This document shows, piece by piece, positions 3,539 through 39,673 of a DNA stretch of 64,000 nucleotides (the first letter of the stretch is position 1; each line of letters starts with the position of its first letter). The stretch is taken from positions 186,001 to 250,000 of the forward strand of contig NZ_JASJOC010000005.1 of the NCBI RefSeq assembly GCF_030068615.1, read 5' to 3'. Under the pieces are notes generated by a model. The model saw only the letters and a list, made by a program, of their open reading frames with translations, was not told the DNA's origin and searched no databases. The position numbers were made by a program, and so were the translations under genes. The stretch is from Halostagnicola sp. A-GB9-2 (lineage in GTDB: Archaea > Halobacteriota > Halobacteria > Halobacteriales > Natrialbaceae).

Positions 3539-5617
3539 CTACAGTCGTTCGAACGTCCAGATCTGGTGGGCCCCGCCTTCCCACTCGCCGGCACGTACCG
3601 TCGCTCCGGACTCATCCGAGGCGTCGGCGACCTCGAGACGCCCGTCGGGAACGTCGATCTGGAAGCCGTTCTCGTAACGTTCCATCCGGTATTCCTCCGG
3701 GGTTCCCTGAACCGCATCGGCACCCGAGAACGCGATACCCATCCCGCTGTGTTCGGCGGTGAGGGTGAAATTGCCCTGCCGACCGTCCATCTCGCCCTCG
3801 ACCGTCCAGCGTTGGTGTGGCTGGTCGTTCCACTCGCCTTGCTGGATCTGTGCTCCGGACGACGTGGAACCGTCGGCGACTTCGAGCACCTTGCCGCTGT
3901 GTTCGGCGACGACTCGATACGTTCCGGGTTCGATCGATTGGACGCCGTCCTCCCAGATCGCATCTCGATCTACGTCGCGCTCGACGGTCGTTCCCGGCTG
4001 ATCGACGACGTAATCGACCTCGAGACTCGTCCCGGGATCGGTTCGCCACTCGAAGACGAGGTCCCACGCTTCGGACTCGGCGTTCCACTCCGGATAGCTC
4101 TCCCACGCCGCCGACGCGCCGGCACCGTCGGACGGAGCCGTTCGAGCCTCGAGCGTCGACTGATAGTGTTCCGAAATCCCTTCGACGCGTGCAGCCGGTG
4201 ACGCATCCGGCTCGAGCGTTGCGGTTCCCCGATCAATCCCGCCGCCGACGTTACCGTGGACGACGGTCGTTTCGGATGCGACGTGGATCCGGCCTGCTTC
4301 ATCGTCGTCGCTCCCGCCGTCAGATCCGGGGACGCGAACGTCGTTATTGATGAACTGGTTGTACAGACACGCACCCCGTTCGTTGATCGCCCACGGCTGT
4401 TCGGGCTCGTCGCGGTCGTCCGTTATCCGGAGATTCGCGAGCGTGACTCCTTCGTTTATCTCCGAGGATTCGCCCATGAGTCCGAGCGACCAGAAGTTCA
4501 CGCCCGGGCCGTCGGTGTTCTTGATGACGCCGCCGAGGACCTTGATATTCCGAACGTCAACGAGGAGGATACCGGCCTTCGACGCCCCCTGGACGTTAAC
4601 CTCGCCGACGGTGACGTCTCGAGTACCCGTGATAATCGAGAGACCGCGAACACCGCCCCGACTGACAACGCGACCGACTGAAACGTTCTGACAACCGTTT
4701 GCGAGCCGGAACGTGGCGTAATCGAACTGTGGATTCTCGCCGACGACCTGCCCGACCGACGCGTCGAACGTCTCGTTCAACAGGAGAACACAACTCCCCG
4801 GATCGACGCCGAGCACCTGTCCGATCTGGATCCGTTCGACGTCGTAGGTCTCTATTCCGTGGTGACCCGTGTTCGTAACGTACGCGGTATCTAACTGAAC
4901 GTCGGTACAGCCGCCCTCGAGGCGAACGCCCTGGCTGGTGACGCCGTCGATCCACAGCCGTCCGAATGCGAGGTTCGAGGAATCGTCCGCGAACACGGCT
5001 CTACTTGCTTCTCCGTCGACGGTGAGACGCGGGACGTGAACGTTTTCGACCCCGACCATCGAAAGGACGTCACCGGTTTCTCCATCGATCGTTACCGTTC
5101 CCGCGATGTCGAGTCGGGTGTGGCTCGGCACGTCGACACCGTGTACGTCGTGGTCCTCGCTGACCCCGAGGTCGCTCGTCGCGCGAACGGTCGCTTTCGT
5201 CGTTCGATCGTCCTCGAGCGAATCGAGTGCGTCCTGCAGGATCGCCATCGGCTCCTCGCCACTCGAGATCGTTTCGGTCGCGGTATCGGCGTGATAGGTG
5301 CCCTCACCATCACACCAAACTGTCACGTCGGCGTCTCCGGACGGCGTATAGGTGTGATCGGCCTCGAGCGACTCGAGATTGTATAATCCGTTTTCTCCCG
5401 CGTCGACATCGGCCTCCCACTCGTACCACGGCTGGTTGCCAGTATTCGGAGTGGACCTTCCCCCTTGCCCCGTTGCGCTTCCCGAACCGCTGAACGCGGC
5501 ACCGAGACCCGCTGCGCCGAGTACTGTCAGTGCGCCACGGCGTCCCATCGAAATCGGAGACGGCGCGGCTGAACGAGTCGATTCCCCTGTCTGGTGGTCG
5601 CCAGTCTCATCAGTCAT
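3539..5617 (-). CDS. Tat-exported right-handed parallel beta-helix protein with C-terminal ricin-type lectin domain
   Basis: This is a secreted protein of 692 aa from the ATG at 5617. A longer in-frame reading from 5653 is less likely, because the Tat signal is complete without it. The signal (GRRGALTVLG, then a hydrophobic stretch ending in small residues) lies near residues 25-50. It is followed by a conserved segment beginning GNQPWYEW, then repeated short beta-strand rungs (NVHVPRLTV, IQIGQV, VSVGRV, VTVGEV) typical of a right-handed beta-helix. H252-H253 belong to a HHGIETYDV motif shared by four paralogues in this window. A WDLVFEW...DPG...VDYVVD module precedes a ricin B-type beta-trefoil near residues 555-692 with QxW repeats (QRWTV, QIWTF). 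Pectin or rhamnogalacturonan binding or cleavage is inferred from context. No known catalytic signature was recognised. Confidence 0.8.
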   Translation of the reverse strand: MTDETGDHQTGESTRSAAPSPISMGRRGALTVLGAAGLGAAFSGSGSATGQGGRSTPNTGNQPWYEWEADVDAGENGLYNLESLEADHTYTPSGDADVTVWCDGEGTYHADTATETISSGEEPMAILQDALDSLEDDRTTKATVRATSDLGVSEDHDVHGVDVPSHTRLDIAGTVTIDGETGDVLSMVGVENVHVPRLTVDGEASRAVFADDSSNLAFGRLWIDGVTSQGVRLEGGCTDVQLDTAYVTNTGHHGIETYDVERIQIGQVLGVDPGSCVLLLNETFDASVGQVVGENPQFDYATFRLANGCQNVSVGRVVSRGGVRGLSIITGTRDVTVGEVNVQGASKAGILLVDVRNIKVLGGVIKNTDGPGVNFWSLGLMGESSEINEGVTLANLRITDDRDEPEQPWAINERGACLYNQFINNDVRVPGSDGGSDDDEAGRIHVASETTVVHGNVGGGIDRGTATLEPDASPAARVEGISEHYQSTLEARTAPSDGAGASAAWESYPEWNAESEAWDLVFEWRTDPGTSLEVDYVVDQPGTTVERDVDRDAIWEDGVQSIEPGTYRVVAEHSGKVLEVADGSTSSGAQIQQGEWNDQPHQRWTVEGEMDGRQGNFTLTAEHSGMGIAFSGADAVQGTPEEYRMERYENGFQIDVPDGRLEVADASDESGATVRAGEWEGGAHQIWTFERL

Positions 5618-5626
5618 GATATGCGC

Positions 5627-5644
5627 TGTCGCGTTATTGCGACA
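5627..5644. promoter_or_regulatory. Perfect 6-bp inverted repeat in the leader of the beta-helix/ricin gene
   Basis: TGTCGC-GTTATT-GCGACA lies 10-27 bases upstream of the ATG at 5617. A related dyad, GTCGC-AAAC-GCGAC, sits 11 bases upstream of the other ricin-bearing paralogue at 58770. Its position between promoter and start codon suits an operator or a leader hairpin. This is inference from sequence symmetry only. Confidence 0.4.
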
Positions 5645-5843
5645 CACCCACATATCGGAGCAATTGACCTTAATTCTTTGCAGATAGTCACTATATTTGA
5701 CTTGATAGGAGTCGTCAAAACAGCGATATGGTGCGAGAGTACTGATGGAGCCGACTCCAATCGGAGTGGTGTACGTCGGCTAGTACGAAGACGGCGGTTC
5801 GACGACCGAAATCGTTATCCGTCAGTTGGGAGACTATCCGACA

Positions 5844-7382: not shown

Positions 7383-7459
7383 CGCCAGAGATCCGCCGCG
7401 CCGCGTGCCGACCAATGGCAAGACCCAAAACCGTGGCATCCGTTAGTCACACACAACTA

Positions 7460-7963
7460 ATGACAACCCAACTCGAAACGTTCGAAACGAGTCTCGAGGA
7501 GGTCCGGACGGGGGTCACCCGGACGACGCCGGACCGGTTCCGAGAAACGCTCGGCGAGATCATCACGGAGCCGGCGATCGGTGCCGAACTTCCCTTCGAA
7601 ACCGTCTCGCTCGAGGGAACGAACGTTGTCCTCGAGCCGACGCCAGATCAGCTTCGTGAGGCCGCTTGTGGCGTCACGAGCGCCGCGCTCGGTGTCGCCG
7701 ACTACGGGACCGTCGTCCTCGAGTCGACTCCCGCAGGGGCGGAACTCACCGGTCTCTTTCCCGACCAGCACGTCGTCGTCGTACGCGAACAGGATCTCGT
7801 CGACGACATGGCGAGCGCGTTCGAACGCATGGGGGAACGCTTTCGCAACGGGCACGACGACGCCGTTCTCGCCACCGGTCCGAGTGCGACCGCCGACATG
7901 GGCGAACTCGTCTACGGCGTCCACGGACCGAAAGAAACGCACGCGATCATCGTGGAGGCATAA
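7460..7963 (+). CDS. lutC: LUD-domain protein LutC, L-lactate oxidation subunit
   Basis: This is a LUD (LutC/YkgG) family protein, 167 aa from the ATG at 7460. An alternative ATG at 7415 would add 15 residues. The shorter form is chosen because it begins at the usual family N-terminus. The conserved family features TSAALGVADYGTVVLES and TGPSATADMG are present. In bacteria LutABC oxidises L-lactate to pyruvate in the cytoplasm using iron-sulfur centres. The stop codon overlaps the start of lutB as TAATG, so the two are translationally coupled. Here it would handle the L-lactate released by the rhamnose diketo-hydrolase route encoded downstream. Confidence 0.82.
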   Translation: MTTQLETFETSLEEVRTGVTRTTPDRFRETLGEIITEPAIGAELPFETVSLEGTNVVLEPTPDQLREAACGVTSAALGVADYGTVVLESTPAGAELTGLFPDQHVVVVREQDLVDDMASAFERMGERFRNGHDDAVLATGPSATADMGELVYGVHGPKETHAIIVEA

Positions 7964-10179
7964 TGTCGAGCGAACGATCCCAGAAGGCCGAACGAATCCG
8001 CCACATCATGGAGACCGAGGGCGACAGCGTCGAGCGAAACGCGCGCGGGTTCAACGAAGGACGATACGAGTCGGTGGACCGACTCGAGGACTACGACGCG
8101 TACAAGGATCGAGCGCGGGCGATCAAAGAAGACGCGATCGAAAATCTCCCCTCGCTGATCGAGCAGGTTCGCGAGACCGTCGAAGCCAACGGCGGCACCG
8201 TCTACCTCGCCGACGACGCGGCCGACGCGAACCGGTACGTCCGCGAACTCGCCCGCGAGCGCGAGGCCGAAACCGTCGTCAAGTCCAAATCCATGACGAC
8301 GGAGGAGATAGACCTTAACGAACATCTCGAGACGGAAGGCTGTGAGGTCTGGGAGACCGACCTCGGCGAGTTCGTGCTGCAGGTCGCAGATGAGGCACCC
8401 AGCCACCTGGTCGCACCGGCGATCCACCAGTCTCGCGAAGAGATCGCCCACCTGTTCAACGAACAGTTCGATCCGGCTGAGAAACTCGAAACGGCCGAAG
8501 AGCTGACCGCGTTCGCTCGAGAGTACCTCGGAGAGCGAATTCAGGACGCGGATATTGGCGTCACCGGCGCGAACTTCGTCACCGCGGATACGGGAACGAT
8601 CGCGCTCGTGACCAGCGAGGGCAACGCCAGAAAGTCGATCGCCGTTCCCGACACGCACGTCGCCGTCGCAGGCGTCGAGAAGATCGTACCGACGTTCGAG
8701 GACCTCCAGCCGTTTGTCGAGTTGATCGCGCGCTCGGGAACCGGCCAGGACATCACCTCCTACGTCTCGTTGTTCTCGCCACCCGTCGACACGCCGACGG
8801 TCAATTTCGACAGCGACGAGCCGATCGATTCGGATGCTTCGGATCGTGACTTCCACCTCGTGCTCCTCGATAACGGCCGGATGGACATGCGCGACGATGA
8901 CCAGCTTCGAGAAACGCTGTACTGCATTCGATGTTCGGCCTGTGCGAACTCGTGTGCGAACTTCCAGTCCGTCGGCGGTCACGTCTTCGGCGGCGAGACC
9001 TACTCAGGCGGAATCGCGACCGGTTGGGAAGCGGGCGTGCACGGACAGGAGTCCGCCGACGAGTTCAACGACCTCTGTACGGGCTGTTCGCGCTGTGTCA
9101 ATCAGTGTCCGGTCAAGATCGACATTCCGTGGATCAACACCGTCGTCCGGGATCGGCGGAATCGAGGGGCCGACGACGGGGACCTGGACTTCCTCGTCGA
9201 GGGGCTTACGCCGGATGAGGAGCCGGCAGGACTCGACCTGCAAAAACGCTTTTTCGGCAACTTCGAGACGCTCGCGAAACTCGGCTCCACGACCGCACCC
9301 GTTTCGAACTGGTTCGCCGGAACGCCGCCCTCGAGGTACCTTATGGAGCGAGTGCTCGGAATCGACAGCCGCCGCGAACTGCCGACCTTCGAGCGCGAAA
9401 CGCTCGTCGAGTGGTTCCGGAACCGGGACGAACCTCGACCCGTCGACGCGGAGTACCACGCGGTCGTCTATCCCGACCTCTACACGAACCACGTCCGAAC
9501 GGAGCGAGGAAAGGCGGCGGTTCGAACGCTCGAAGCCCTCGGCGTCGCCGTCGAAGTCCCCGACGTGGCCTCCTCCGGCCGCGCACCCCTCTCTCAGGGC
9601 ATGATCGCCACGGCCGAAGAACACGCACGCGAGGTGCGCGACGACCTCGACGCCCACATCGACGCCGGCTACGACGTGGTCGTCATCGAACCGAGCGATT
9701 TGGCGATGTTCCGCGGCGAGTACGAACGGCTGCTCGAGGAGGACCGCTACGAATCGCTCGCAGAACGGAGTTACGAACTCTTCGAGTACATCTTCGGACT
9801 ATTCGAGAACGGCGCGTCCGCGGAGGCACTTCGCGACGCCGAGAGTATCGGTGCTTCAACGGATGTCGCCTACCACTCACACTGCCAACAGCGGACGCTC
9901 GAACTCGAGACGTACACGACGACTGTCCTCGAACGACAGGGATTCGACGTTCTCACGTCCGACGTCGAGTGTTGTGGCATGGCCGGCAGTTTCGGCTACA
10001 AGAGCGAGTACTACGACCTGAGCGTGGACGTCGGCGAACGGCTACAGGCGCAGTTCGAGATGCCCGATGCGACGAATCGAACGGTCGTCGCGAGCGGCAC
10101 GTCCTGCCTCGAGCAACTCGACTCGATGTTGACCCGTCAACCCCGACATCCGATTACCCTCGTGGATCCGAAGCGCTGA
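7963..10179 (+). CDS. lutB: LutB-type iron-sulfur protein fused to a LutA-like CCG domain, L-lactate oxidation
   Basis: This 738-aa protein combines functions that are separate in bacteria. Residues 1-300 are a LUD domain (DIGVTGANFVTADTGT). Near 321-385 lie two ferredoxin-like Cys clusters, CIRCSACANSC and CTGCSRCVNQCP, for two 4Fe-4S centres. The last 280 residues are LutA/GlpC-like, with an intact CCG motif (VECCGMAGSFG near residue 665). The expected first CCG motif near residue 535 reads ASSGRAPLSQG, so both cysteines are replaced. A GGAGG ribosome-binding site lies 5 bases before the ATG. It should form the lactate-oxidising unit together with LutC. The electron acceptor is unknown. Confidence 0.88.
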   Translation: MSSERSQKAERIRHIMETEGDSVERNARGFNEGRYESVDRLEDYDAYKDRARAIKEDAIENLPSLIEQVRETVEANGGTVYLADDAADANRYVRELAREREAETVVKSKSMTTEEIDLNEHLETEGCEVWETDLGEFVLQVADEAPSHLVAPAIHQSREEIAHLFNEQFDPAEKLETAEELTAFAREYLGERIQDADIGVTGANFVTADTGTIALVTSEGNARKSIAVPDTHVAVAGVEKIVPTFEDLQPFVELIARSGTGQDITSYVSLFSPPVDTPTVNFDSDEPIDSDASDRDFHLVLLDNGRMDMRDDDQLRETLYCIRCSACANSCANFQSVGGHVFGGETYSGGIATGWEAGVHGQESADEFNDLCTGCSRCVNQCPVKIDIPWINTVVRDRRNRGADDGDLDFLVEGLTPDEEPAGLDLQKRFFGNFETLAKLGSTTAPVSNWFAGTPPSRYLMERVLGIDSRRELPTFERETLVEWFRNRDEPRPVDAEYHAVVYPDLYTNHVRTERGKAAVRTLEALGVAVEVPDVASSGRAPLSQGMIATAEEHAREVRDDLDAHIDAGYDVVVIEPSDLAMFRGEYERLLEEDRYESLAERSYELFEYIFGLFENGASAEALRDAESIGASTDVAYHSHCQQRTLELETYTTTVLERQGFDVLTSDVECCGMAGSFGYKSEYYDLSVDVGERLQAQFEMPDATNRTVVASGTSCLEQLDSMLTRQPRHPITLVDPKR

Positions 10180-12039: not shown

Positions 12040-12306
12040 CGATTCGACTCGGCGAACGACTACACTCGGCTCCCGAGTAGACCATCCACAGCTTTCTTTA
12101 CGGAACTGCCGGCAACGACACGAGACTCGAGGACTGGGAAATCCGAGCAGACACCAGTACCGATCAGACACCAATATTTCGTGAGTTGCCACTCGAGAGC
12201 CCCGTTCGATCCATCCGTTATTCGCCTGATTGCTCTCGGATTACCCTGGCCGAAAATTCGACAACCGACAGAAAGATTCAAGGTCCAGCCCTTGGATTTG
12301 AACACG

Positions 12307-13143
12307 ATGCAATTCATTCGATTCGCGACTAGCGGCGGCGTCCGCTGGGGCGTCATCGTCGACGACCAGCCGTACGCGCTGGACCGATTCGGAGAACCGA
12401 CCATCGAAGACCTCGCGACTCCGGGGTACCGCCGGCGCGTCGAGCGCGCCGTCGAGATCGGAGCGCTTCCGGCTATTGACGAACCGACGGATTATCTCGC
12501 GCCGATTCCGTCGGTGGAACAGATCATTTGTGTTGGACTCAACTACTACGATCACGCCGAAGAGCAAGACGAGGAGATCCCCGAAAAGCCGATGCTGTTC
12601 GCGAAGTCGCCCTCGAGCGTCACGGACCCTACCGCACCCATCGTCCACCCCGACGACGTCGAGCAGGTCGACTACGAGGTCGAACTCGGCATCGTCATCG
12701 GACGGACCGCCTGCGAGGTCAGCGCCGACGAAGCCGAGGAGTACGTCGCCGGCTACACGGTCATCAACGACGTGAGCGCTCGGGACGCGCAGTTCGAGGA
12801 CGAACAGTTCTTCCGCGGGAAGAGCTACGACACGTTCGCGCCGATGGGGCCCGCGCTCACCGCCCCCGAAGCGATCGATCCCAATGATGTGGACGTCGAA
12901 CTTCGCCTCAACGGCGAGGTCAAGCAGGAGTCGACGACGGCAGAGTTCATCTTCGACGTCGGCGACACGATCGAGTATTTAAGCCACGTTACGACCCTCC
13001 AGCCGGGGACCGTCATCTCGACCGGAACGCCGGGGGGCGTCGGTATCTTCCGCGATCCGCCGGAACTGCTCGCACCGGGCGACACCGTCGAAGCCGAAAT
13101 CGAAGGGATCGGAACGCTCGAGAATCACGTCGTCGAGCAGTAA
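12307..13143 (+). CDS. FAH-family hydrolase, probable 2,4-diketo-3-deoxy-L-rhamnonate/fuconate hydrolase
   Basis: This fumarylacetoacetate-hydrolase fold protein has 278 aa from the ATG at 12307. The metal-binding residues are visible as E124 and E126 in DYEVELGIVIG and D155 in INDVSARD. The C-terminal FAH signature GTVISTGTPGGVG is intact. In the archaeal and bacterial diketo-hydrolase routes, this family splits 2,4-diketo-3-deoxy-L-rhamnonate or -fuconate into pyruvate and L-lactate. That fits the rhamnonate dehydratase-like gene at 16906, the mutarotase at 19253 and LutBC at 7460-10179. Other acylpyruvate hydrolase activities remain possible. A 5-bp dyad CAAGG-N6-CCTTG precedes the start at 12279-12294. 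Confidence 0.82.
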   Translation: MQFIRFATSGGVRWGVIVDDQPYALDRFGEPTIEDLATPGYRRRVERAVEIGALPAIDEPTDYLAPIPSVEQIICVGLNYYDHAEEQDEEIPEKPMLFAKSPSSVTDPTAPIVHPDDVEQVDYEVELGIVIGRTACEVSADEAEEYVAGYTVINDVSARDAQFEDEQFFRGKSYDTFAPMGPALTAPEAIDPNDVDVELRLNGEVKQESTTAEFIFDVGDTIEYLSHVTTLQPGTVISTGTPGGVGIFRDPPELLAPGDTVEAEIEGIGTLENHVVEQ

Positions 13144-13167: not shown

Positions 13168-14040
13168 TCAGATATCGGCGACGGTCCTGAACGAGCGGCC
13201 GGTGAGCCACGTTCGATCTTTTTTCGAGAGACAATCGACATGCTCGAGCCAGCGTAGGCTCTCCTCGTACGTCGCCTCGTCGCTGACGTTCGGGAAGTCC
13301 GAACCCCACGCGATCCGCTCGCGGCCGAACGTCTCGAGCAACCAACGGACGTGATCGTGCACGTCTCGGTACGGAAACTCCGCTTCGGAGCGGTGGACGA
13401 CTTCGGATATCTTTACAACGACCTCGTACTCGTCGGCAGCGAGTGCCTCGAGAGCGCCGAACTTGCTTTCTTCCGGCGGGACGGTCGGATCGGCGTGACA
13501 GAAGTGATCGAGCGCGTACCGCAGGTCGGGGTACGTCTCGACCAGTTCGATAACGTCCTCGAGTTGGTCGATATCGGCGAGGATCTGTACGAGTGCGTCG
13601 GTATCCCGGGCGGCCTCCCAGAACGACGTCTCCTCGATCGACTCCCGTAACCACGAGACGGACGGATCGAAGGTCTCCCACATCCGATCGTACGGGCAAA
13701 TTGCACCCAACCTGAAACCGAGGACGCCCTCGACGGCCATCCGGTCGCGCAATCGATCGGCCGCGCCGTCCGCGAACTGATCGAGCATGACGATTCCCGA
13801 GAGCCGGTCGTTCGCTTCGACGCACTCGAGCGTGTAGTGATTATCCGTCCACTCGCAGATCGGGTAGCCGACGACGACCGCCTCGTCGACGCCGACCGCA
13901 TCCATATCCTCGAGTAGCTTCTCGGCCGTGTAGACGGTATCCACGCCGAACTCGTCGACGGTTTCGACGAGCGGGCCGTTGACCCAGGGATGGTCTCGTG
14001 TCGGTCGCGTCCACGCGTGTGTGTGAGTGTCCAGCACCAT
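13168..14040 (-). CDS. Amidohydrolase (COG3618 type), probable L-rhamnono-/L-fucono-lactonase
   Basis: This is a 290-aa TIM-barrel metal hydrolase. The N-terminal metal motif DTHTHAW gives His6 and His8, a second His-rich segment LDHFCHAD lies near 178, and the final metal ligand is the Asp in WGSDFPNV near 250. The family includes L-fuconolactonase and 2-pyrone-4,6-dicarboxylate hydrolase. It is convergent with the FAH hydrolase gene (24 bases apart) and faces the same way as the zinc dehydrogenase upstream. It should open the aldonolactone made by that dehydrogenase. The sugar specificity (rhamnose versus fucose) is inference from context. Confidence 0.78.
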   Translation of the reverse strand: MVLDTHTHAWTRPTRDHPWVNGPLVETVDEFGVDTVYTAEKLLEDMDAVGVDEAVVVGYPICEWTDNHYTLECVEANDRLSGIVMLDQFADGAADRLRDRMAVEGVLGFRLGAICPYDRMWETFDPSVSWLRESIEETSFWEAARDTDALVQILADIDQLEDVIELVETYPDLRYALDHFCHADPTVPPEESKFGALEALAADEYEVVVKISEVVHRSEAEFPYRDVHDHVRWLLETFGRERIAWGSDFPNVSDEATYEESLRWLEHVDCLSKKDRTWLTGRSFRTVADI

Positions 14041-14212: not shown

Positions 14213-15247
14213 TCAGAGATCGGTGAACGAAAAGACGGGTTTGCAGGTTTCGGACTCGAGGAACGCTTCGAACGCCGACGTCGGTTCGTCGATGCTGAAC
14301 GAGCGATCGATGATCGCATCCGCGTCGATCGCTCCGGCAGACAGCAGTCGGATTGCCTGTTCGAAGTTCTGCCAGGTCGAGCCGTAGGACGTATTCAGAT
14401 CGACTTCGCCGCGGACCACCGGCGTCATGAACACTTCACTGGGCGCTCCGGGGAGGCCGACGACAACGACCTGTCCGCCTTTGCGCACGTGGTCGATAGC
14501 TATCTCGACGCCGCTTTGATGACCCGTCGTATCGAATACCACGTCGAATCCGATCTCGTCGGTCCGTTCGTCGACGGTTTCTGACAGATCACTCGTCTGA
14601 ATATCCACCGTCTCGATGCCGAGTCGTTCGACCAATGGAAGGCGATATTCAGTGTCTTTGCCCAGCCCGGAAACGATGACGTCAGCGCCCATCGCGTCCG
14701 CAACGGCCGCTACGAGAACGCCGATCGGGCCGGGACCTTCAACGAGGACGGTGTCGCCGGGAGTCACGTTCGATTGATCGAACACCGCTCGCGTGGCGAT
14801 GCTGAGCGGTTCGGTGATGCTCGCCTGGCCGAGCGGAACGTTCTCGGGAATCTTGTGGAGATCTCGAGGTTTCACCGTCGTAAACTCGGTATAGGCACCG
14901 TCTTTGTGCATGCCCGTGATCTCGAAATTTTGACAGACGTTCGGTTGGCCGTTCTTGCACTGAAAGCACGATCCGCAGTCGTGGATCGGTTCCTCGACGA
15001 CGGAGTCGCCGACGGCAAAGTCGGTCACGTTGTCGCCGACAGCAACGACTTCGCCGGAGTATTCGTGACCCATAATCCGCGGAATCGGGATCCACTCGTA
15101 GCCGTCTTCGTACTTGTAAGCGTGTGCATCACTGCCACATAACCCGGCTGAATGGACGCGGACGAGTACTTCGCCGTCGTCGGGAACAGCTTTCTCGCGC
15201 TCTCGGATTTCGATAGATCTAGGACCGGTATGGACTATAGCCTTCAT
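14213..15247 (-). CDS. Zinc-dependent medium-chain dehydrogenase, sugar dehydrogenase (copy A)
   Basis: This MDR-family enzyme has 344 aa. Predicted catalytic zinc ligands are C37, H61 and E62, structural zinc cysteines are C91, C94, C97 and C105, and the Rossmann motif is GPGPIG at 171-176. The family contains sorbitol, threonine and 2-keto-3-deoxy-aldonate dehydrogenases. It has a close paralogue of identical length at 40450-41484, and their upstream regions also align, so the pair is a recent duplication. Its place between the lactonase and the rhamnonate dehydratase-like genes suggests oxidation of L-rhamnose/L-fucose or of 2-keto-3-deoxy-L-rhamnonate. Which step it performs cannot be told. 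Confidence 0.85.
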   Translation of the reverse strand: MKAIVHTGPRSIEIREREKAVPDDGEVLVRVHSAGLCGSDAHAYKYEDGYEWIPIPRIMGHEYSGEVVAVGDNVTDFAVGDSVVEEPIHDCGSCFQCKNGQPNVCQNFEITGMHKDGAYTEFTTVKPRDLHKIPENVPLGQASITEPLSIATRAVFDQSNVTPGDTVLVEGPGPIGVLVAAVADAMGADVIVSGLGKDTEYRLPLVERLGIETVDIQTSDLSETVDERTDEIGFDVVFDTTGHQSGVEIAIDHVRKGGQVVVVGLPGAPSEVFMTPVVRGEVDLNTSYGSTWQNFEQAIRLLSAGAIDADAIIDRSFSIDEPTSAFEAFLESETCKPVFSFTDL

Positions 15248-16905: not shown

Positions 16906-18111
16906 ATGGAAATAACAGATATCAGCGTCACGAAGGTTAGTACCGATTCCTGGGGCGAGTTCGTCGAGTTCCCGCTCGTCACCGTCATGAGCAAGTTCGA
17001 CGAGTACAACAACGCGGACGGCGACAACCCGCAGGCCCGCCGCAAGTGGATGGGGCCGGTCGGCGACGTCGTCGTCGAAGTCGAAACCAACGCGGGCATC
17101 ACCGGCGTCGGCGTCGGCAACTGGGCGACCGGCTCGATCGAAACTATCGTCAACGAGACGCTCTCGAAGCTGATCGTCGGCGAGGACCCACACGAACGCG
17201 AACGCCTGTGGGACATGATGTACCGCGCGACGATCCCCTTCGGTCGAAAGGGTGCCGCCATCGAGGCAATCAGCGCGGTCGACCTCGCACTGTGGGACAT
17301 CGCCGGCAAGGAGGCGGAAAAACCCGTCTACGAACTGCTCGGCGGTCCCGTAACCGATGATATTCCGTGTTACGCGAGTAACCTCCACCCCGTCGACCAC
17401 GAAAAGCTCGAGGAAGAAGCACTCGAGTACGCCGAGAAGGGATTCGAGACGATGAAGCTTCGCTTCCTGCACGGCCCCGAAGCGGGTCGCGAGGGGATGA
17501 AAGAAAACGAGGAGATCGTCAAGACGGTTCGAGACGCCGTCGGCGACGACATCGGAATCGCAGGCGACGCGTACATGGGGTGGAACGTTCGCTACGCCAA
17601 GAAGATGCTCAAACGCTTAGAGCGCTACGACATGGAGTGGGTCGAAGAACCCGTCATTCCCGACGATATCGACGGCTATGCGGAGCTTCGAAAGGCTTCG
17701 AACGTCCCGATTTCGGGCGGCGAACACGAGTTTACCCGATGGGGGCACAAGGAACTGCTCGAGCGCGAAGCCGTCGACATCCTCCAACCGGACGTCCACC
17801 GCTGTGGCGGCCTGACTGAACTGCTGAAGATCGACTCGATGGCGAGCGCTCGGGACGTGCCGGTGATCCCTCACTCGGGAACGAACCCGCACCTCCACTT
17901 TATCGCGGCCTCGACCAACGCGCCGATGGCCGAGTACTTCCCTATCCCCGAGTGGTATCAAGAGCGCCAGGGCGAGCAGGAATCGACCTACGCCGATGCG
18001 ATCTACGCGAACCCGCCGAACGCCGAGGACGGGTCGATCCCGATTCCTCAGAGCGTCGGCCTGAGCTCGGAAGTCAACCGCGACGCATTAGAACACTACG
18101 CGGTCGAGTAA
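16906..18111 (+). CDS. Enolase-superfamily L-rhamnonate dehydratase-like protein
   Basis: This mandelate racemase/muconate lactonising family protein has 401 aa. The N-terminal capping domain is followed by a barrel with ligands in GDAYMGW, WVEEPVIPDD and SGGEHEF, and the distinctive QPDVHRCGGLTE and VIPHSGTNPHLHF segments. The layout, including RFLHGPEAGREGMKEN and the late TNAPMAEYF segment, resembles that of E. coli RhmD from memory. The reaction would be dehydration of L-rhamnonate to 2-keto-3-deoxy-L-rhamnonate. It is 1 base from the next gene and followed by rhamnose mutarotase, which supports the rhamnose assignment. GATTTGAAC just upstream also precedes the FAH hydrolase gene. Confidence 0.84.
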   Translation: MEITDISVTKVSTDSWGEFVEFPLVTVMSKFDEYNNADGDNPQARRKWMGPVGDVVVEVETNAGITGVGVGNWATGSIETIVNETLSKLIVGEDPHERERLWDMMYRATIPFGRKGAAIEAISAVDLALWDIAGKEAEKPVYELLGGPVTDDIPCYASNLHPVDHEKLEEEALEYAEKGFETMKLRFLHGPEAGREGMKENEEIVKTVRDAVGDDIGIAGDAYMGWNVRYAKKMLKRLERYDMEWVEEPVIPDDIDGYAELRKASNVPISGGEHEFTRWGHKELLEREAVDILQPDVHRCGGLTELLKIDSMASARDVPVIPHSGTNPHLHFIAASTNAPMAEYFPIPEWYQERQGEQESTYADAIYANPPNAEDGSIPIPQSVGLSSEVNRDALEHYAVE

Positions 18112-18112
18112 C

Positions 18113-19150
18113 ATGAGCGCGACGGACATCACGTTCGAATACAACGTGCCGGTGTTCGCTGGCGCGCCGGAATCGGGAACCGATCCCGTCCACCGCGACA
18201 CGCCGTCCTACGAACGACTCGAGTGGGAGACCACCCGAGACTGCGTCCTGAAAGCCGAAGAACTCGGCTTCGACGCCGCCTGGGCTCCCGATCACCTCAT
18301 GCTCGGGCGCGACCACGCCGAGTACGAGTGCTGGACGCTCCTTTCGGCGCTCGCCGGCTGCACGGACGAGATCAACCTCGGCTCGCTCGTCCTCTGTAAC
18401 GACTACCGGAATCCGGCACTCGTCGCGAAAATGGCGGCGACACTCGATGTCATCTCCGGCGGTCGCCTCGAGCTTGGACTCGGTGCCGGCTGGCACGAAC
18501 CCGAGTACGAGGCCTACGGCTGGGAGTACCGGGACGGGTTCGAACGACTGATGCGCCTGGACGAGAGTATCCGCCTGGTGAAGGAGATGTGGAGTGCCGA
18601 CCCCGACGAAGGCGGCTCGTTTTCGGGCGATCACTACGAGATCGACGGCGCGTACTGTGAACCGGGCCCGGTTCAGGACCCGCATCCGCCGATTCTCGTC
18701 GGCGGACAGGGCGAAGAAGTCACCCTGAAACTCGTCGCCAAACACGCCGATATCTGGAACACCGACGTGTTCAACGGGACGCCCGAAACCTTAGCGCACA
18801 AGATCGACGTCATCGAAGACCACTGCGACACCGTCGGTCGTAATCCCGACGAAATCGAGTACTCCTGGGACGGTCACGTCATTTGTACGCGTGAGGAGGA
18901 GAAAAAAGAGCGCTTGCTCGAGCTCATGCTCCCGATCCAGTTCGAAGACGAGTACGTCGATCAGGCTGACATCGAAACCGAAGCGGACGCCCGCGAGTAC
19001 TTCCTCCTGGGAACGCCCGAGGAGTGCGCCGAAGCGATCGAACGCCGGATCGACGCCGGTGTGACCAAGTTCCAGTGCTGGTTCGTCGACGTGCCGGACA
19101 CCAACGGAATGGAACTGTTTGCCGACGAAGTTATCTCGCAGTTCCGCTAA
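18113..19150 (+). CDS. Luciferase-like (LLM) oxidoreductase, probably F420- or flavin-dependent
   Basis: This bacterial-luciferase-superfamily TIM-barrel protein has 345 aa. Typical features are FDAAWAPDHLML, the GAGWHEPEYEAYGW segment after the SGGRLELGLG strand, and PPILVGGQGEEVTLKLVAKHADIWN. Haloarchaea make coenzyme F420 and many LLM proteins use it, as F420-dependent glucose-6-phosphate dehydrogenase does. It begins 1 base after the rhamnonate dehydratase-like gene and precedes the mutarotase, so it is probably co-transcribed and may be one of the sugar or ketodeoxy-acid dehydrogenases of the pathway. That substrate assignment is inference, and the cofactor was not established from sequence alone. 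Confidence 0.82.
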   Translation: MSATDITFEYNVPVFAGAPESGTDPVHRDTPSYERLEWETTRDCVLKAEELGFDAAWAPDHLMLGRDHAEYECWTLLSALAGCTDEINLGSLVLCNDYRNPALVAKMAATLDVISGGRLELGLGAGWHEPEYEAYGWEYRDGFERLMRLDESIRLVKEMWSADPDEGGSFSGDHYEIDGAYCEPGPVQDPHPPILVGGQGEEVTLKLVAKHADIWNTDVFNGTPETLAHKIDVIEDHCDTVGRNPDEIEYSWDGHVICTREEEKKERLLELMLPIQFEDEYVDQADIETEADAREYFLLGTPEECAEAIERRIDAGVTKFQCWFVDVPDTNGMELFADEVISQFR

Positions 19151-19252: not shown

Positions 19253-19558
19253 ATGGCACGGATTGCATTTCATCTGAAGATCGCCGACGGACAGCGAGAC
19301 GCCTACCGAGAAGCCCACGAAAACGTCCCCGAGTGGCTCGAGGAGAGCTACCTCGACTCCGATGCCGGACTCGAGACCTACAGCGTCTTCGAGTCGGACG
19401 GGCACGTCTTCGGATTCATGGAACTCGACGATCCGGAGGCGATTCACGACGTAATGGAAACGAGTGACGCTCAGGCTCAGTGGGCGGAAACGATGGACGG
19501 TATTACGGTCGACGATGACTCCGATCAGTGGATGGACGAAGTCTATCGGATGATTTGA
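19253..19558 (+). CDS. rhaM: L-rhamnose mutarotase
   Basis: This is a compact 101-aa protein of the RhaM/YiiL family, which interconverts alpha and beta anomers of L-rhamnose in the cytoplasm. His22 in YREAHENVP aligns with the catalytic His of E. coli RhaM. The family also shows YSVFE..GHVFGFMELDD, the QWAETM segment, and the C-terminal DEVYRM. The length matches the family (about 104 aa). It lies 102 bases after the LLM gene. This small gene is the strongest marker that the surrounding oxidative block acts on L-rhamnose, although some members also act on other deoxy sugars. Confidence 0.88.
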   Translation: MARIAFHLKIADGQRDAYREAHENVPEWLEESYLDSDAGLETYSVFESDGHVFGFMELDDPEAIHDVMETSDAQAQWAETMDGITVDDDSDQWMDEVYRMI

Positions 19559-21110: not shown

Positions 21111-21281
21111 ACCAGGCAATTGGATGGCTTTCAGATAAAGATATCGTCACCGGCTCTCGAGCGATTCGCCACTACTCGGTTCGCCGAACTTCGCGATTGG
21201 CCGAATCGATCACAATCGGTCACGGTCGCGCCGTCAAGCAAGATTTATCATGTGTCCGTGGGAGTATTAGCTATCGTTACT

Positions 21282-22346
21282 ATGACTGAGTCCCTCGAAG
21301 AGGCAGTCTCGAACGTCGCATCGTACACCATCGATCACGACATGGAAAACGAAGTCTGGCAAAAAGGCGTCGCGATCAACGGACTCCTCGCGACGGAGCG
21401 CGAGGACTGCGTCGAACGTGCCAGAGATCTCGTCGACCGCGCCGTCGAAACCCAAGACAGCAACGGACAGCTGTCGTACGGCCCGAGCTACCCCATCGAA
21501 GTCTTCCAGCACGGGAAAGAGTACGACGCCCACTGGCATATCGACGAGCGAAAGGCGATGAACACCAACAATACGACCTCCATCGGTCACGGGGTTCTGG
21601 ACTTCTACCGACGAACCGGTGAGGAGCGATACCTCGAGGGCGCGCGAGGCGAGTACGACAACCTGCAATCGATCGAGCGCACGGAAGACGGCGGAATCCC
21701 CCACCACGTCCCCGAGCTCTCGGGCGTGAAAGGACTCTGGATCGACTCCGTCTACATGATGTGCCCGTTCTTCGCTCGCTACGGGGCCGCCGCCGACGAA
21801 TCGGAGGCGTTCGACGAAGCTGCCAAACAGATTATCGTCCACGCGAAGCACCTGCAAGACCCCCACACCGGTCTATTTCGACACATCTGGCACGAACAGC
21901 CCAACAGCTACCCCCAGAGCACCTTTTGGGCCCGCGGAAACGGCTGGGTGCAGGCCGCGATCGTCGACGTCCTGGAGTACCTGCCGGAGGACCACGAGGA
22001 CCGGGACGAACTGATCGAGATTTTCCGGGACGTTTCCTCGTCGATCATCGAACGCCAGGACGATAGCGGAATGTGGTACAACGTAGTCGACGACCCGCAC
22101 ACGCCCCTCGAGAGTTCGGGGACGCTCATGTACACCTACGCGTTCAAGCGCGCCCTCGAGTTAGGAATCGTCGACGACGACGCCTACGAGGAGGCGGCCG
22201 CGAACGCGATGGACGTTGCGGTGGGACTCGTCGACGACGATGGCGCGGTGCGTCGAGTCGCCGGCCCGCCGGGCGGACCGGGCGCGCCGCTGACGAGCAC
22301 CTCCTACGGGCAAGGCTTCTTCCTGCTCGCGGCGAACCAGTTCTAG
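21282..22346 (+). CDS. GH105 unsaturated rhamnogalacturonyl hydrolase (YteR/RhiN family)
   Basis: This is a 354-aa (alpha/alpha)6-barrel hydrolase from the ATG at 21282. A TATA-like TTTATCA lies about 35 bases upstream. The predicted general acid is Asp155 in LWIDSVYMMCPF, as in Bacillus YteR. The substrate-region motifs WARGNGW and GTLMYTYAFKRAL are intact. There is no signal peptide, so it acts in the cytoplasm. It hydrates and removes the unsaturated galacturonyl residue from rhamnogalacturonan-I fragments made by lyases. This implies that such lyase products reach this cell, although no PL4/PL9/PL11 lyase was recognised in the window. Confidence 0.88.
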   Translation: MTESLEEAVSNVASYTIDHDMENEVWQKGVAINGLLATEREDCVERARDLVDRAVETQDSNGQLSYGPSYPIEVFQHGKEYDAHWHIDERKAMNTNNTTSIGHGVLDFYRRTGEERYLEGARGEYDNLQSIERTEDGGIPHHVPELSGVKGLWIDSVYMMCPFFARYGAAADESEAFDEAAKQIIVHAKHLQDPHTGLFRHIWHEQPNSYPQSTFWARGNGWVQAAIVDVLEYLPEDHEDRDELIEIFRDVSSSIIERQDDSGMWYNVVDDPHTPLESSGTLMYTYAFKRALELGIVDDDAYEEAAANAMDVAVGLVDDDGAVRRVAGPPGGPGAPLTSTSYGQGFFLLAANQF

Positions 22347-24063: not shown

Positions 24064-25734
24064 CTAATCAGCCTGTGCGTACTCCGCGACGGTCCCGGAC
24101 GGGACCGTGCCGTCGTCGTTCCAGCCGCGGAGTTCGTAGTACTCCTCGATCGATGACTCGAGGTCCGGGAGGTCGTAGGGCAGTCGGTCCTCCTCGCCGC
24201 CGTGTCCGCGCTGGTTCCGGAAGTGGCGCTCGAGTTCGACGATCCGGGCACCGACCTCGAGGATGTCGTCGTACTCCGCGTCGAACAGCGCCTCGAATCG
24301 GTCGCTTTCGACGGCGCGACCCACGCCGAACTGGCAGATGACGCCGCTGTCGCGGAACGCGTTTCGGTTCTCGTTCTCGACCACGAGTTCCGCCTTCCCG
24401 GCGGTCCCACGGGGGTCGACGTCACCACCGTACTCGTCGGCGAGTGTCGTCGAGTACATGTGATCGCCGCCACGGTTCGCGACGGCGTAGGACAGGCCCT
24501 GTCCATTGATCGCGCGCCCGTCGTGAGCGGCGAACTCCATACCTTTCACGGAGAAGTTCTCGACGCCGAGTTCCTCGTGGCTTCGCGCGACGCCCTCCGC
24601 CAGCAGGTCGCCTTCGTCCTCGCGGAACGCGATCTTCTCGACGATGTCGTGGACGAGTTCCGCGTTGCCGAACTCCTCTTCGCTCGCCAGATACGCCGCA
24701 ACGACGTTTCCACAGGAGATCGTGTCCATGCCGTACTGGTCACACAGTTCGTTCGACTGCATCACGTCGACCAACTCGCCGACGCCGCAGTTCGAGCCAA
24801 AGGAAAAGACCGTCTCGAGTTCGGGTCCCTCGGTTTCGATCCCGGTTTCCTCGTCTCGAGTCGGCAGTTTGCAGGCGAAGGCACAGACCGAACAGGAGGC
24901 CTTCTCGTACTTTTTCTCCTCGACGGCGTCGCCGCCGATATCCTCTGCGTGTTCGAACGACTGTTCGGAGAAGTATCGCGTCGGGAGCGAGAAATTATCG
25001 TTGACGAACTCGATCGAGTTCGTCGTTCCCTGTCGGCGCATGATGTGATCGCTGGTCGCGGCTTCTCGGTGAACCGACGACTGGACGTCTTCGGCCGGTA
25101 TCTCGACTTCGGGGGCCGAGTCACCCTGGAAGGTGATGCACTTGACGTTCTTCGAACCCATGACCGCCCCGAGTCCACCGCGGCCGAACGCTCGACTGTC
25201 GTAGGTCATCACGCATGCAAATCGCACGCCGTTTTCGCCCGCCGGGCCGATCGTCGCGAGGTTCTCGCTTTCGAGGCCGTGGCGTTCGTTCATCACTGCG
25301 GAAACTTCGGGGACGGTTGCCTCCTCGAGTTCGGGGACCTCCTCGAACTCGACGCCCTCGTCAGTGACGTGGACCGCGAGCAGTTCGTCGCTCTCACCGG
25401 TGAGTTCGACCACGCTGTGACCGGTTCCGACGAAGTTTCGGGAGAGATACCCGCCTGCGTTCGCCGAGGCGACGCCGTCAGTTAGCGGGGAGAGCGCGGT
25501 GCAATTCATTCGACCGGTAAAGCTCATCTGGGACTGCTGGAGCGGACCGGTCGAGAAGTAGAGTCGGTTTTCCTCGCCGTACGGATCCGCATCGAAGGGG
25601 ATCCGGTCGTGCGCGAGTTTGGTTGCAACGCCTCGACCGCCAACGAATTCGGACAGTTCGTCGTCAACCGTTTCCGTCCGAGCGGCTCGGTCGCCGACAT
25701 CAATCGTACACAGTGTACCTTTTGCGTGAAGCAT
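24064..25734 (-). CDS. Aldehyde ferredoxin oxidoreductase (tungstopterin, AOR family)
   Basis: This is a 556-aa cytoplasmic AOR-family enzyme from the ATG at 25734. The start is placed there because the upstream extension is translated repeat DNA. The N-terminal pterin-binding domain shows FVGGRGVATKL, FSTGPLQQSQ and RFACVMTYDSRAFGRGGLGAVMGSK split over that region. The 4Fe-4S cysteines lie in CSVCAFACK with a later Cys in SNCGVGE. It should oxidise an aldehyde to its acid and pass electrons to ferredoxin. The substrate is unknown. Sugar-derived aldehydes are possible given the neighbours. It is slightly shorter than Pyrococcus AOR (about 605 aa). Confidence 0.88.
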   Translation of the reverse strand: MLHAKGTLCTIDVGDRAARTETVDDELSEFVGGRGVATKLAHDRIPFDADPYGEENRLYFSTGPLQQSQMSFTGRMNCTALSPLTDGVASANAGGYLSRNFVGTGHSVVELTGESDELLAVHVTDEGVEFEEVPELEEATVPEVSAVMNERHGLESENLATIGPAGENGVRFACVMTYDSRAFGRGGLGAVMGSKNVKCITFQGDSAPEVEIPAEDVQSSVHREAATSDHIMRRQGTTNSIEFVNDNFSLPTRYFSEQSFEHAEDIGGDAVEEKKYEKASCSVCAFACKLPTRDEETGIETEGPELETVFSFGSNCGVGELVDVMQSNELCDQYGMDTISCGNVVAAYLASEEEFGNAELVHDIVEKIAFREDEGDLLAEGVARSHEELGVENFSVKGMEFAAHDGRAINGQGLSYAVANRGGDHMYSTTLADEYGGDVDPRGTAGKAELVVENENRNAFRDSGVICQFGVGRAVESDRFEALFDAEYDDILEVGARIVELERHFRNQRGHGGEEDRLPYDLPDLESSIEEYYELRGWNDDGTVPSGTVAEYAQAD

Positions 25735-25800
25735 TATCGGTGCCAACGGAGTTCGTAGTAAAAAAGGTAGGGATAACGATCGTATTATCGCGGTGAGATT

Positions 25801-25852
25801 GCGCGTGAGCCGAACACCAAACAGCGCGCGTGAGCCGAACACCAAACAGCGC
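25801..25852. repeat. 25-bp exact tandem duplication in the aor/GH42 divergent region
   Basis: Bases 25801-25825 are repeated exactly as 25826-25850, and the match runs 2 bases further. The unit contains CGTGAGCCGAACACC. It lies 67 bases upstream of the AOR start and 92 bases upstream of the GH42 start. It could be replication slippage or a duplicated regulatory site. Confidence 0.7.
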
Positions 25853-36922: not shown

Positions 36923-39673
36923 TTACTCGAGTTCGAACCGGTACCGACCGGATTCGACGTCGATCGAAACCGCTTCGCCGAGTCGAGTCGCGGTGACACC
37001 CTCGAGAGCCGGTCCCGAAGACGGGTCCGGTTTCGATGACGAACTGTCGGTGGTCGAAAGCACCGTTCCGTTGACTCGCACGGCGTCAGCGTCGACGGGA
37101 AGAACCACTGAGGCAGTCGCATTCCAGGGCACCGTCACTTCGAGGTCAAACGTCTCCCCTTCTCGACTCCAAGAGACGTCCACCGTTCCCCGTTCGGTCG
37201 GGACCCGTCCGGACGCGGCCTCGAGGCCCGACGCCGGCGGACGAATCTCGAGGTGACTTCCCTCGCGCTCTGCGAGTCGAACGCCGAGTAAGGCGCGCTG
37301 GATGCTCACCAGAACCGGCCCGCCCATCGCGTGGGACTCGCTCCGGTTTCGCCGCTCGCTCGTCGGGAGGTCGGGATCGCGACAATGCCAGGTTTCCCAG
37401 GTGAACGTCCCACCCTGTTCGAGGATGTTCGCCCAGCCGTCGTCGTCGGGGTTCGTCAACAGGTCGACCAGCGCGTCGGTTCGATCCGCGGCCTCGAGCG
37501 CTTCACAGAGCCAGGGGACCATCATCGGTCCCATTTGCATACCCATTTCCGCGACGTGGTCGGCAACCCTGTCGATCGCCTCGTCGGGGACGAGTCCAAA
37601 CGCGAGTGCGAGGGCGTTGGCGTGCTGGGACCGACTCTCGCTCCTTCCGGAGGCTCCACAGCCGTCGACGTACAATTCCCCGTCGAAGAGGTGTTCTTGA
37701 ACGGCGGACTCGAGGGCCGCCCGCCGTTCACGATAGCGCTCGAGTTCTCCGCCGGGACACTCGAGTTCCTCGGCGATGGCCGCGGCTTTGGCGAAAGCGT
37801 TGGCACCGAGAATGTTGATCGTCGTTCGGGCGGGCCAGTCCCGATCGTAACCGTAGCGCATCTCGGGGGGCCAGTCGACGATCCCCTCCTCGTAGGGACC
37901 TCCCTCGCCGCCCGAGAGGTTCATCACGAGACCGGTTTCCGCGTCGACGTGGTCGGCGATGTACTCGGTGATCGCTCGCACGACGGGGTAAGCGGCCTCG
38001 AGGATCGACCGGTCGCCAGACATCCGATAGTACTGCCAGACCCACTCGGGGAAGGCTTCGGTGAAGTCGGGAATGTCGCGCTTGCCGTCGCCGTTGGGAT
38101 AAACGGCGTTTATCCGCCCCTCGGCCACCCAGTAGCGGTAGTGCGAGCGAACGAATTCCCGAATCGCCTGGCGGGTTAGCGCACGCTCTCCGAACGCGCG
38201 CGTCGACACCGCAGAGATATTCAGCGCGTCCACGAGGAACTGTCCTTTCTCTCGCGTCGGTGTATCGATGAACTGCTCTTGACACCCGTAGAGCGTTGAG
38301 TGGCGCGCGAGTTCGAAAACATCGTCGACGGTTTCGTTGGACGATTCGAAGGTCGCCGCGTGCTCGTCAGGTACCTCGTTGTGAAGCGCCCGAAGCGACA
38401 CCTGTTCGGGATCGAGTTCCTCGCCCGGCGCGTCGATCTGCAGGTACCGAACGCCGAGGTAATTAAACGGACGGAACGTGCAATCGCCGTCGCGCTGGAC
38501 GTACGCATAGTGCATGTCGGTCCACTGGGTCCCCTCCTGTTCGTCCACCATTCTGTCACCTCGGAGGCGATATCCCGCCCGCACGTCGACGCGGTGGCCT
38601 GCAGTTCCGCCCTTGAACGTGATCTCTGGGATCCCGGCGTAGATCCGACCGAAGTCGGCGACGTAGGTCTCGTCGTCGACCCTGGTTACGGTCACCGGTT
38701 CGACCTGCGAGCCGACGACCTCGCGATTCTGGGCGATGAGTCGCTCCCAGGGCTCGGTCGGGTGCCGGCCGATGACACCGGCCGGCTTCCACGTCTCGTC
38801 GTCGAACCCCGGTCCGGCCCAGTCCGAGGGCGCGTCGCGGCCGTCGATGAGTTCGACCGCCTCACCGACTTCTTCGTTCCGTACCGGGGCGTCCTCGTCC
38901 CATTCAGCTTCGCGAAGTCGCCACGCTTCGTCGGTGACTATCGTGCGTTCGCTCCCGTCGGCGAGTTCGATCTCGAGCTGGCAGAGAAAGCCGGGCTCGC
39001 CCGTTGGACGCCCCTGACCCTCTCCGTGCCACGTAAAGAGCGCGCCGATAGCGTTCTCGCCGGTCTCGAGCGCGTCGGCCAGATCGATCGTCTTGTAGTA
39101 GTGGTGATCAGGATAGGAAAACGACTGGCCGCGGTCCACCCGCTCGCCGTTGACCGAGAGCTCGTACTGGTGGGAGGCGGCCACGGAGGCGCGGGCTCGT
39201 TCGACGGAAGCGTCGTCGGGGAGGGCGAACTCGCGGCGGGCGTAGGTGAACTGTCCGCGTTCGAAGTCGGTTGCACCATCGATATCGATCTCGGAGGGAC
39301 GGCGGATCCAGTTTGCGTCCCAATCATCCGACTCGAGCAACCCCATTCCCCACATCGCCGGATCGCTCCAGGGACTTTCGTCGTCGCCGTCCCAGATGCG
39401 CACCTTCCAGTGGTAGTCCGTGCCGGACTCGAGCGTCAGTCCGTCGTAAGGTATCGAAGGTTGCGAGCTCTTCTGCTTGCCAGTGTCCCAAATATCTCCC
39501 TCGTCGTCGGCCAGTCGTTCCCGACTCGAGGCGACGAGTACGCGGTAAGCGGTCTGGTGTGCACCGCGTCGGTCCGTGTCGACCCGCCAGCAGAGGTCGG
39601 GCTCGCGCTCGTCGATGCCGGGGGGATCCGAGACGAATTCGGTTCGGAGATCGGTCGGCCGGGTCAGCGTCAT
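36923..39673 (-). CDS. GH78 alpha-L-rhamnosidase
   Basis: This is a multidomain intracellular GH78 enzyme of 916 aa from the ATG at 39673. The upstream in-frame extension is non-coding leader. The N-terminal fibronectin-like domain (LCWRVDTDRRGAHQTAYRVLVAS) is followed by the beta-sandwich with GQSFSYPDHHYYKTIDL. The catalytic (alpha/alpha)6 barrel contains QFIDTPTREKGQFLVDALN, which holds the conserved Asp and general acid Glu, and GGTFTWETWH with the putative base Glu. A C-terminal beta-domain ends at FELE. It releases L-rhamnose for the oxidative pathway at 12307-19558. Its mRNA leader contains a strong stem-loop (39705-39738). Confidence 0.93.
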   Translation of the reverse strand: MTLTRPTDLRTEFVSDPPGIDEREPDLCWRVDTDRRGAHQTAYRVLVASSRERLADDEGDIWDTGKQKSSQPSIPYDGLTLESGTDYHWKVRIWDGDDESPWSDPAMWGMGLLESDDWDANWIRRPSEIDIDGATDFERGQFTYARREFALPDDASVERARASVAASHQYELSVNGERVDRGQSFSYPDHHYYKTIDLADALETGENAIGALFTWHGEGQGRPTGEPGFLCQLEIELADGSERTIVTDEAWRLREAEWDEDAPVRNEEVGEAVELIDGRDAPSDWAGPGFDDETWKPAGVIGRHPTEPWERLIAQNREVVGSQVEPVTVTRVDDETYVADFGRIYAGIPEITFKGGTAGHRVDVRAGYRLRGDRMVDEQEGTQWTDMHYAYVQRDGDCTFRPFNYLGVRYLQIDAPGEELDPEQVSLRALHNEVPDEHAATFESSNETVDDVFELARHSTLYGCQEQFIDTPTREKGQFLVDALNISAVSTRAFGERALTRQAIREFVRSHYRYWVAEGRINAVYPNGDGKRDIPDFTEAFPEWVWQYYRMSGDRSILEAAYPVVRAITEYIADHVDAETGLVMNLSGGEGGPYEEGIVDWPPEMRYGYDRDWPARTTINILGANAFAKAAAIAEELECPGGELERYRERRAALESAVQEHLFDGELYVDGCGASGRSESRSQHANALALAFGLVPDEAIDRVADHVAEMGMQMGPMMVPWLCEALEAADRTDALVDLLTNPDDDGWANILEQGGTFTWETWHCRDPDLPTSERRNRSESHAMGGPVLVSIQRALLGVRLAEREGSHLEIRPPASGLEAASGRVPTERGTVDVSWSREGETFDLEVTVPWNATASVVLPVDADAVRVNGTVLSTTDSSSSKPDPSSGPALEGVTATRLGEAVSIDVESGRYRFELE

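Follow-up and report, generated by a model that had tools for sequence, protein, structure and literature searches.

A luciferase-like oxidoreductase gene strictly paired with rhcD in haloarchaea: a candidate F420-dependent enzyme of L-rhamnose catabolism

Results

Gene content of the locus

The window (the whole 64,000-nucleotide stretch of DNA that was analysed) carries on its plus strand, at 18113-19150, an open reading frame with an ATG start for a luciferase-like oxidoreductase (LLM) of 345 amino acids, which was recognised as a TIM-barrel LLM-domain protein by its match to Bac_luciferase in Pfam (PF00296, E=1.3e-53). The first-pass annotation had placed this gene 1 base after a rhamnonate dehydratase-like gene and upstream of a mutarotase gene, and the coordinates agree: the TAA of the dehydratase gene ends at 18111, which leaves 1 nucleotide before the ATG at 18113, and the mutarotase gene starts 102 nucleotides past the LLM stop. 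The features of the window assigned to rhamnose utilization, with the basis of each assignment, were as follows.

7415-7963, plus strand: small LUD-domain subunit, likely part of an L-lactate dehydrogenase (domain match)
7666-10179, plus strand: large LUD-domain/4Fe-4S subunit, likely part of an L-lactate dehydrogenase (domain match)
12181-13143, plus strand: FAH-family hydrolase of the RhcF type, putative 2,4-diketo-3-deoxy-L-rhamnonate hydrolase (a score of 210 bits against an equivalog cut-off of 500)
13168-14040, minus strand: amidohydrolase-2 family protein, likely L-rhamnono-lactonase (weak L-fuconolactonase match; role suggested by the cluster)
14213-15247, minus strand: RhcE-type MDR dehydrogenase (family match and RhcE-type comparison)
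16906-18111, plus strand: L-rhamnonate dehydratase, RhcD orthologue (enolase superfamily; closest model L-rhamnonate dehydratase, with a score below its cut-off)
18113-19150, plus strand: LLM-family (TIGR03560) oxidoreductase, proposed F420-dependent L-rhamnose 1-dehydrogenase (profiles, linkage and tree)
19253-19558, plus strand: L-rhamnose mutarotase, RhaM (PF05336, E=8e-14)
21120-22346, plus strand: Glyco_hydro_88-family unsaturated glycoside hydrolase, in a pectin/rhamnogalacturonan context (domain match)
36923-39781, minus strand: alpha-L-rhamnosidase with Bac_rhamnosid domains, likely a supplier of rhamnose (domain match)

The listed reading frame of the large LUD subunit begins inside the small-subunit gene, and its true start probably lies downstream of the listed one. 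LudBC has been linked with growth on rhamnose in an account of haloarchaeal gene functions (PMC8305020). Judged by family, the gene set of the window is predicted to take rhamnose to pyruvate and lactate and onward. No recognised sugar 1-dehydrogenase was seen by family in the core cluster (12-20 kb), and LLM was the sole unassigned redox gene there.

The wider statement that the window holds no other redox gene was dropped because the window also encodes a second MDR similar to RhcE, an aldehyde ferredoxin oxidoreductase, an aldo/keto reductase and an SDR of the epimerase type. The second MDR (40393-41484, plus strand) is 84% identical to that at 14213-15247 and adjoins a GH4 gene. The aldehyde ferredoxin oxidoreductase (AFOR_N and AFOR_C; 24064-25845, minus strand), an unusual redox enzyme for a sugar region, adjoins a GH42 beta-galactosidase gene and recurred in only a single region (L046) of the 48 orthologue regions compared. 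The SDR, uronate dehydrogenase-like by context, and the aldo/keto reductase are located at 53-55 kb in a pectin/uronate region (50463-62224) together with oligogalacturonate lyase, an enolase-superfamily dehydratase, GH115 and UxuA. Ricin-type beta-trefoil lectin domains were noted in two large proteins (3542-5653, minus strand, and 58770-61025, plus strand), perhaps as carbohydrate-binding parts of polysaccharide enzymes.

Linkage of LLM to rhcD

Matches to LLM at E<=1e-60 were found in 95 of the 391 haloarchaeal genomes drawn. In 49 of these the match was an orthologue at 76-100% identity, the other listed matches being at most 49% identical, and linkage was counted on these 49. RhcD orthologues (at least 72% identity) occurred in the very same 49 genomes, which represent 24 genera. 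In tblastn searches, rhcD lay directly upstream of LLM and in the same direction in all 49 regions, the window included, from the 24 genera, which argues that the pairing is not due to chance; de novo clustering of called ORFs, by comparison, missed LLM in five regions and rhcD in several. The gap between the two genes was 1-10 nucleotides in 43 of 44 measurable regions (2 or 3 nucleotides in 38 of the 44), with a 4-nucleotide overlap in the remaining one, and the surroundings of the pair were otherwise reshuffled among regions. Thus, conservation next to rhamnose genes in relatives, a check that had been set beforehand, was borne out by the linkage to rhcD.

LLM is tied less tightly to other genes of the pathway than to RhcD. 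Within 9.4 kb on either side of LLM, and at an identity of at least 45%, an RhcE-type MDR was present in 44 of 49 regions. An RhcF-type gene accompanied LLM in 36 regions, a lactonase gene in 29 and a mutarotase gene in 28. Co-occurrence with rhamnose mutarotase, which the first-pass annotation had singled out, therefore held for 28 of the 49 regions but was looser than that with rhcD. Its position beside rhcD and further rhc genes in different genera makes LLM a member of the rhc cluster.

Similar results were obtained with named loci, which included Haloferax, Haloarcula, Haloterrigena, Natrinema and Halorubrum and which partly overlap the 49 genomes, so that the two sets are not independent. 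Among 33 such loci with an LLM match of at least 72% (L098-L129 and L131; the fragment L165 was left out of the count), rhcD was upstream in 31. One exception, Salinigranum salinum (L127), has LLM (72%) with the MDR, lactonase, mutarotase and SDR types; no RhcD orthologue was found within this 17-kb locus, where a 35% enolase homologue takes the place of RhcD, and LLM thus seems to follow the pathway rather than RhcD alone. The other, Halocatena marina (L128), has an interrupted second LLM copy without rhamnose neighbours. Haloarcula records between them label the neighbours rhcD, rhcE and rhcF while leaving the LLM gene as an LLM oxidoreductase. On pHTUR01 of Haloterrigena turkmenica (L167, 18296-21032), genes annotated mftE, mftA, mftB2, mftC and mftF for mycofactocin, another unusual redox cofactor system, occur from about 7 kb off the rhamnose LLM.

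Relatives of the rhamnose-linked LLM

In a tree of 90 LLM entries, the 50 rhamnose-linked entries formed one side of a branch with support of 100/99. Next to this clade was a haloarchaeal clade of 13 entries (42-47% identity). Annotated LLMs related to the latter belong to a different sugar cluster, which also encodes an SDR, a mutarotase-like protein and a lactonase of the SMP-30 type, and in some cases an aldo/keto reductase or a mannonate dehydratase. The SDR beside members of the sister clade is annotated as glucose 1-dehydrogenase. At three loci of this second group (L185, 20374-25650; L186, 17782-22317; L181, 7395-14101), genes for an SDR, an SMP-30 lactonase and a protein resembling rhamnose mutarotase were noted in all three, and those for an aldo/keto reductase and a mannonate dehydratase in two each. 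Three more distant plasmid LLMs (39-40%) have a peptidase, a transporter and other genes as neighbours and no recognisable sugar cluster, which limits a broad reading of the family as one that uses F420 for sugars.

The rhamnose LLM shares near-invariant residues, among them D60, H61, W127 and E131, with 23 relatives. In contrast, two stretches of the rhamnose clade, one near the N terminus (residues about 26-33) and one at about 273-290, have no counterpart in most or all of these relatives, and residues D97, D218, D253, H255, W323 and D326, at the ends of barrel strands, are conserved in the clade but rare in the 23 relatives. The latter residues would suit a sugar pocket.

Evidence for the cofactor

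The LLM of the window scored 232.7 bits against TIGR03560 (F420_Rv1855c; NCBIfam), an NCBI LLM subfamily named as F420-dependent, and thus exceeded the cut-off of 231.4 by 1.3 bits, whereas a Haloarcula orthologue, at 231.0 bits, was 0.4 under it; the rhamnose LLM passes narrowly and as a separate clade. No reaction for this subfamily is described in those parts of the literature that were examined. An AlphaFold2 model (pLDDT 89.7, pTM 0.90) gave 50 listed structural matches, all with Z>30, and the top matches were a mixture of FMN enzymes or their like (SfnG, Z 34.9; 3rao, 34.2) and F420 enzymes (Mer, 34.3; Fgd, 33.9 with 5lxe). As modelled, the fold does not tell enzymes that use F420 from those that use FMN, and association with F420 biosynthesis was therefore examined instead.

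CofD was over its cut-off in G000 and in 26 of 30 bacterial genomes with LLM homologues (33-46% best-segment identity), a count that has no matched background; the other four had no CofD above the cut-off. The 30 were taken from 32 bacterial loci, two of which, L156 and L161, carry the same record prefixes as L154 and L137. In an even draw of 149 Acidobacteriota, 19 genomes had CofD and seven had TIGR03560 over cut-off, and all seven were among the 19 (Fisher p=1.8e-7). Five of the seven look alike, so that the test rests on few lineages; after these five were collapsed and G391, the genome through which the phylum was chosen, was dropped, p was 0.009. In G429 of this phylum, about 2.4 kb separate the TIGR03560 gene and cofD. 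Weaker TIGR03560 matches (E<=0.001), taken as other LLM types, were present in 53 of the 149, including genomes without CofD. In a control set of 14 well-known genomes, CofD was over cut-off in three and TIGR03560 in one. Since the TIGR03560 cut-off is just passed and the family tracks F420 biosynthesis, F420 is the probable cofactor of LLM as judged from these comparisons.

The analogy to Fgd in the first-pass annotation did not survive when taken literally. Scores of LLM with the Fgd models TIGR03554 and TIGR03557 were 54.5 and 75 bits against cut-offs of 420 and 210.4, and with the Mer model TIGR03555 70 bits against 348.7. In an alignment with Adf, whose His39, Trp43 and Glu108 we take to be the active-site residues at the F420 ring, LLM keeps the His (H61) but has L64 at the position of Trp and W127 at that of Glu, so that an active site of the Fgd/Adf type is lacking. 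Membership in the Fgd family was therefore rejected. The absence of a Trp and a Glu presumed to serve in F420 sugar and alcohol dehydrogenases also argues against an F420 sugar dehydrogenase as such. LLM shares with Fgd and Fsd the fold and the proposed chemistry, aldose C1 to lactone, and may work like Fgd though outside its family; however, Fgd and Fsd act on glucose- or sugar-6-phosphate, whereas the proposed substrate of LLM is an unphosphorylated 6-deoxyhexose. A review of F420 mentions low activity of Fsd on unphosphorylated sugars (PMC8498797), which is a weak precedent for the chemistry proposed here.

Discussion

Proposed role of LLM

Our preferred, still tentative reading is that LLM is a dedicated F420-dependent enzyme of the rhamnose pathway, most likely L-rhamnose 1-dehydrogenase. 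LLM would act in the oxidative (diketo-hydrolase) route of L-rhamnose breakdown in haloarchaea and, through presumed co-translation, would be made from a tight gene pair with RhcD. RhaM would provide the right anomer of rhamnose, and LLM would then oxidise C1 of the pyranose by hydride transfer to coenzyme F420, yielding L-rhamnono-lactone and F420H2 (step 1). The lactone would be opened by the amidohydrolase and the product dehydrated by RhcD, after which RhcE would oxidise C4, RhcF would split the product into pyruvate and L-lactate, and the lactate would be oxidised by the LUD enzyme. The observed parts of this reading are the gene, its family, the strict linkage to RhcD, the single clade and the co-occurrence of the wider family with F420 biosynthesis. 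The F420-linked rhamnose dehydrogenase of the first-pass annotation is thus upheld as to a probable F420 enzyme with a plausible role in rhamnose catabolism, while cofactor and substrate alike stand as predictions.

The main evidence against step 1 comes from an SDR of the Haloferax type, found within about 12.5 kb of LLM.

L052, 6667-7461, minus strand: rhamnose-linked SDR, candidate conventional L-rhamnose dehydrogenase (only in genomes with the rhamnose LLM)

In a survey of 382 genomes, with at most six candidates scored per genome, this SDR was present in 19, all of which were among the 49 with LLM and which included all eight Haloferax genomes (genus g43). Its confinement to LLM-positive genomes suggests that it is probably rhamnose-specific, and it may be the conventional L-rhamnose dehydrogenase of haloarchaea. 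An SDR tried earlier in that role (L073, 13183-13971) mostly tracked the second LLM clade and not RhcD, and was discarded. No orthologue of the rhamnose-linked SDR (E<=1e-70) was found in this genome or in any of the 17 genomes of the same family, this one included, and 30 of the 49 LLM genomes were without it; in these, step 1 falls most naturally to LLM. Step 1 could also fall to the second RhcE-like MDR, the aldehyde ferredoxin oxidoreductase, the epimerase-type SDR or the aldo/keto reductase of the window, or may be carried out by an enzyme unlinked to the rhamnose cluster.

It is accordingly quite possible that LLM is an F420-dependent rhamnose enzyme other than the 1-dehydrogenase, with the SDR or another enzyme oxidising rhamnose and LLM either oxidising or reducing some other intermediate or rescuing a side product around RhcD. 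The SDR is itself a good candidate for rhamnose dehydrogenase, and LLM is retained in 19 of 19 genomes that have both, so that a different or additional redox role is nearly as likely as step 1. Such a role would also fit the coupling of the LLM gene to that of RhcD and not to those of the lactonase or mutarotase, and members of the sister clade likewise accompany an SDR sugar dehydrogenase, annotated as glucose 1-dehydrogenase. However, with steps 1 and 4 assigned, the described pathway offers no further open redox step, and this alternative has to accommodate the 30 of 49 genomes without the SDR.

Activity as an FMNH2-dependent monooxygenase on a substituted rhamnose or sugar acid, with an unlinked flavin reductase, is improbable. 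The presence of SfnG and 3rao among the top structural matches is consistent with it, as are the finding that 3rao was also the best PDB sequence match, a W...E...YG segment common to LLM, 3rao and 8vw6, and the annotation of 19 plasmid records with an LLM match of at least 76%, which was flavin-dependent in 16, F420-dependent in two and missing in one. On the other hand, Mer and Fgd tie structurally with the former enzymes, and scores with the SfnG, RutA and SsuD models were 103.1, 71.3 and 70.3 bits, far below the respective equivalog cut-offs of 382.95, 498.3 and 518.2. Moreover, presence of the family goes with CofD, and no match to a flavin reductase family was found among the 40 window proteins scanned.

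The first-pass annotation had offered oxidation of 2-keto-3-deoxy-rhamnonate (KDR) as a second option, and KDR 4-dehydrogenase activity with F420, beside or instead of RhcE, would suit the pairing of LLM with the gene of RhcD, the producer of KDR, as well as the five of 49 regions without an RhcE-type MDR within 9.4 kb. This option is weak and such an activity very unlikely, since RhcE orthologues (at least 67% identity) exist somewhere in 48 of the 49 genomes, all but G226, which lacks any at E<=1e-100, and step 4 is thus covered. That LLM is a passenger gene unrelated to rhamnose, for which little speaks beyond the interrupted copy in Halocatena marina, is hardly credible given linkage in 49 of 49 regions from 24 genera with reshuffled surroundings.

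Comparison with known rhamnose pathways

In the bacterial non-phosphorylative pathway, step 1 is catalysed by an NAD(P)-dependent L-rhamnose 1-dehydrogenase of the SDR type. The intermediates occur in the same sequence in the haloarchaeal route, for which an F420-dependent LLM is proposed here at that step. The L-rhamnose (rhc) pathway of Haloferax volcanii was reportedly described in an original paper of 2019 by Reinhardt et al. RhcD, RhcE and RhcF-type genes, an IclR regulator and an ABC transporter surround LLM in Haloarcula and Haloferax loci, yet no rhc name was attached to the LLM gene among the annotated records examined. In the portions of the literature searched, outside the scope of which lies the 2019 paper, no function for the rhamnose LLM was apparent. 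HVO_B0113, which we infer to be the H. volcanii orthologue, is placed among F420-type proteins without an isofunctional characterised homologue and too distant to assign (PMC8305020).

Significance

According to a statement in the same account (PMC8305020), only one F420-dependent reaction had, to its authors' knowledge, been reported for halophilic archaea, and the importance of the coenzyme in these organisms was called enigmatic. A far-reaching interpretation, which we regard as rather doubtful, is that haloarchaeal sugar catabolism runs on F420, with the rhamnose clade as an F420-dependent L-rhamnose 1-dehydrogenase that acts on an unphosphorylated deoxysugar through an active site unlike that of Fgd, the sister clade serving likewise in the second sugar cluster, and a large part of the F420 pool acting as electron acceptor for sugars. 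LLM is a conserved, probably F420-dependent addition to the described rhamnose pathway, and it could serve as an F420 reductase that draws its electrons from an unphosphorylated sugar. Strictly linked to an established catabolic operon and present in the genetically tractable Haloferax, the LLM gene offers a concrete and testable role for F420.
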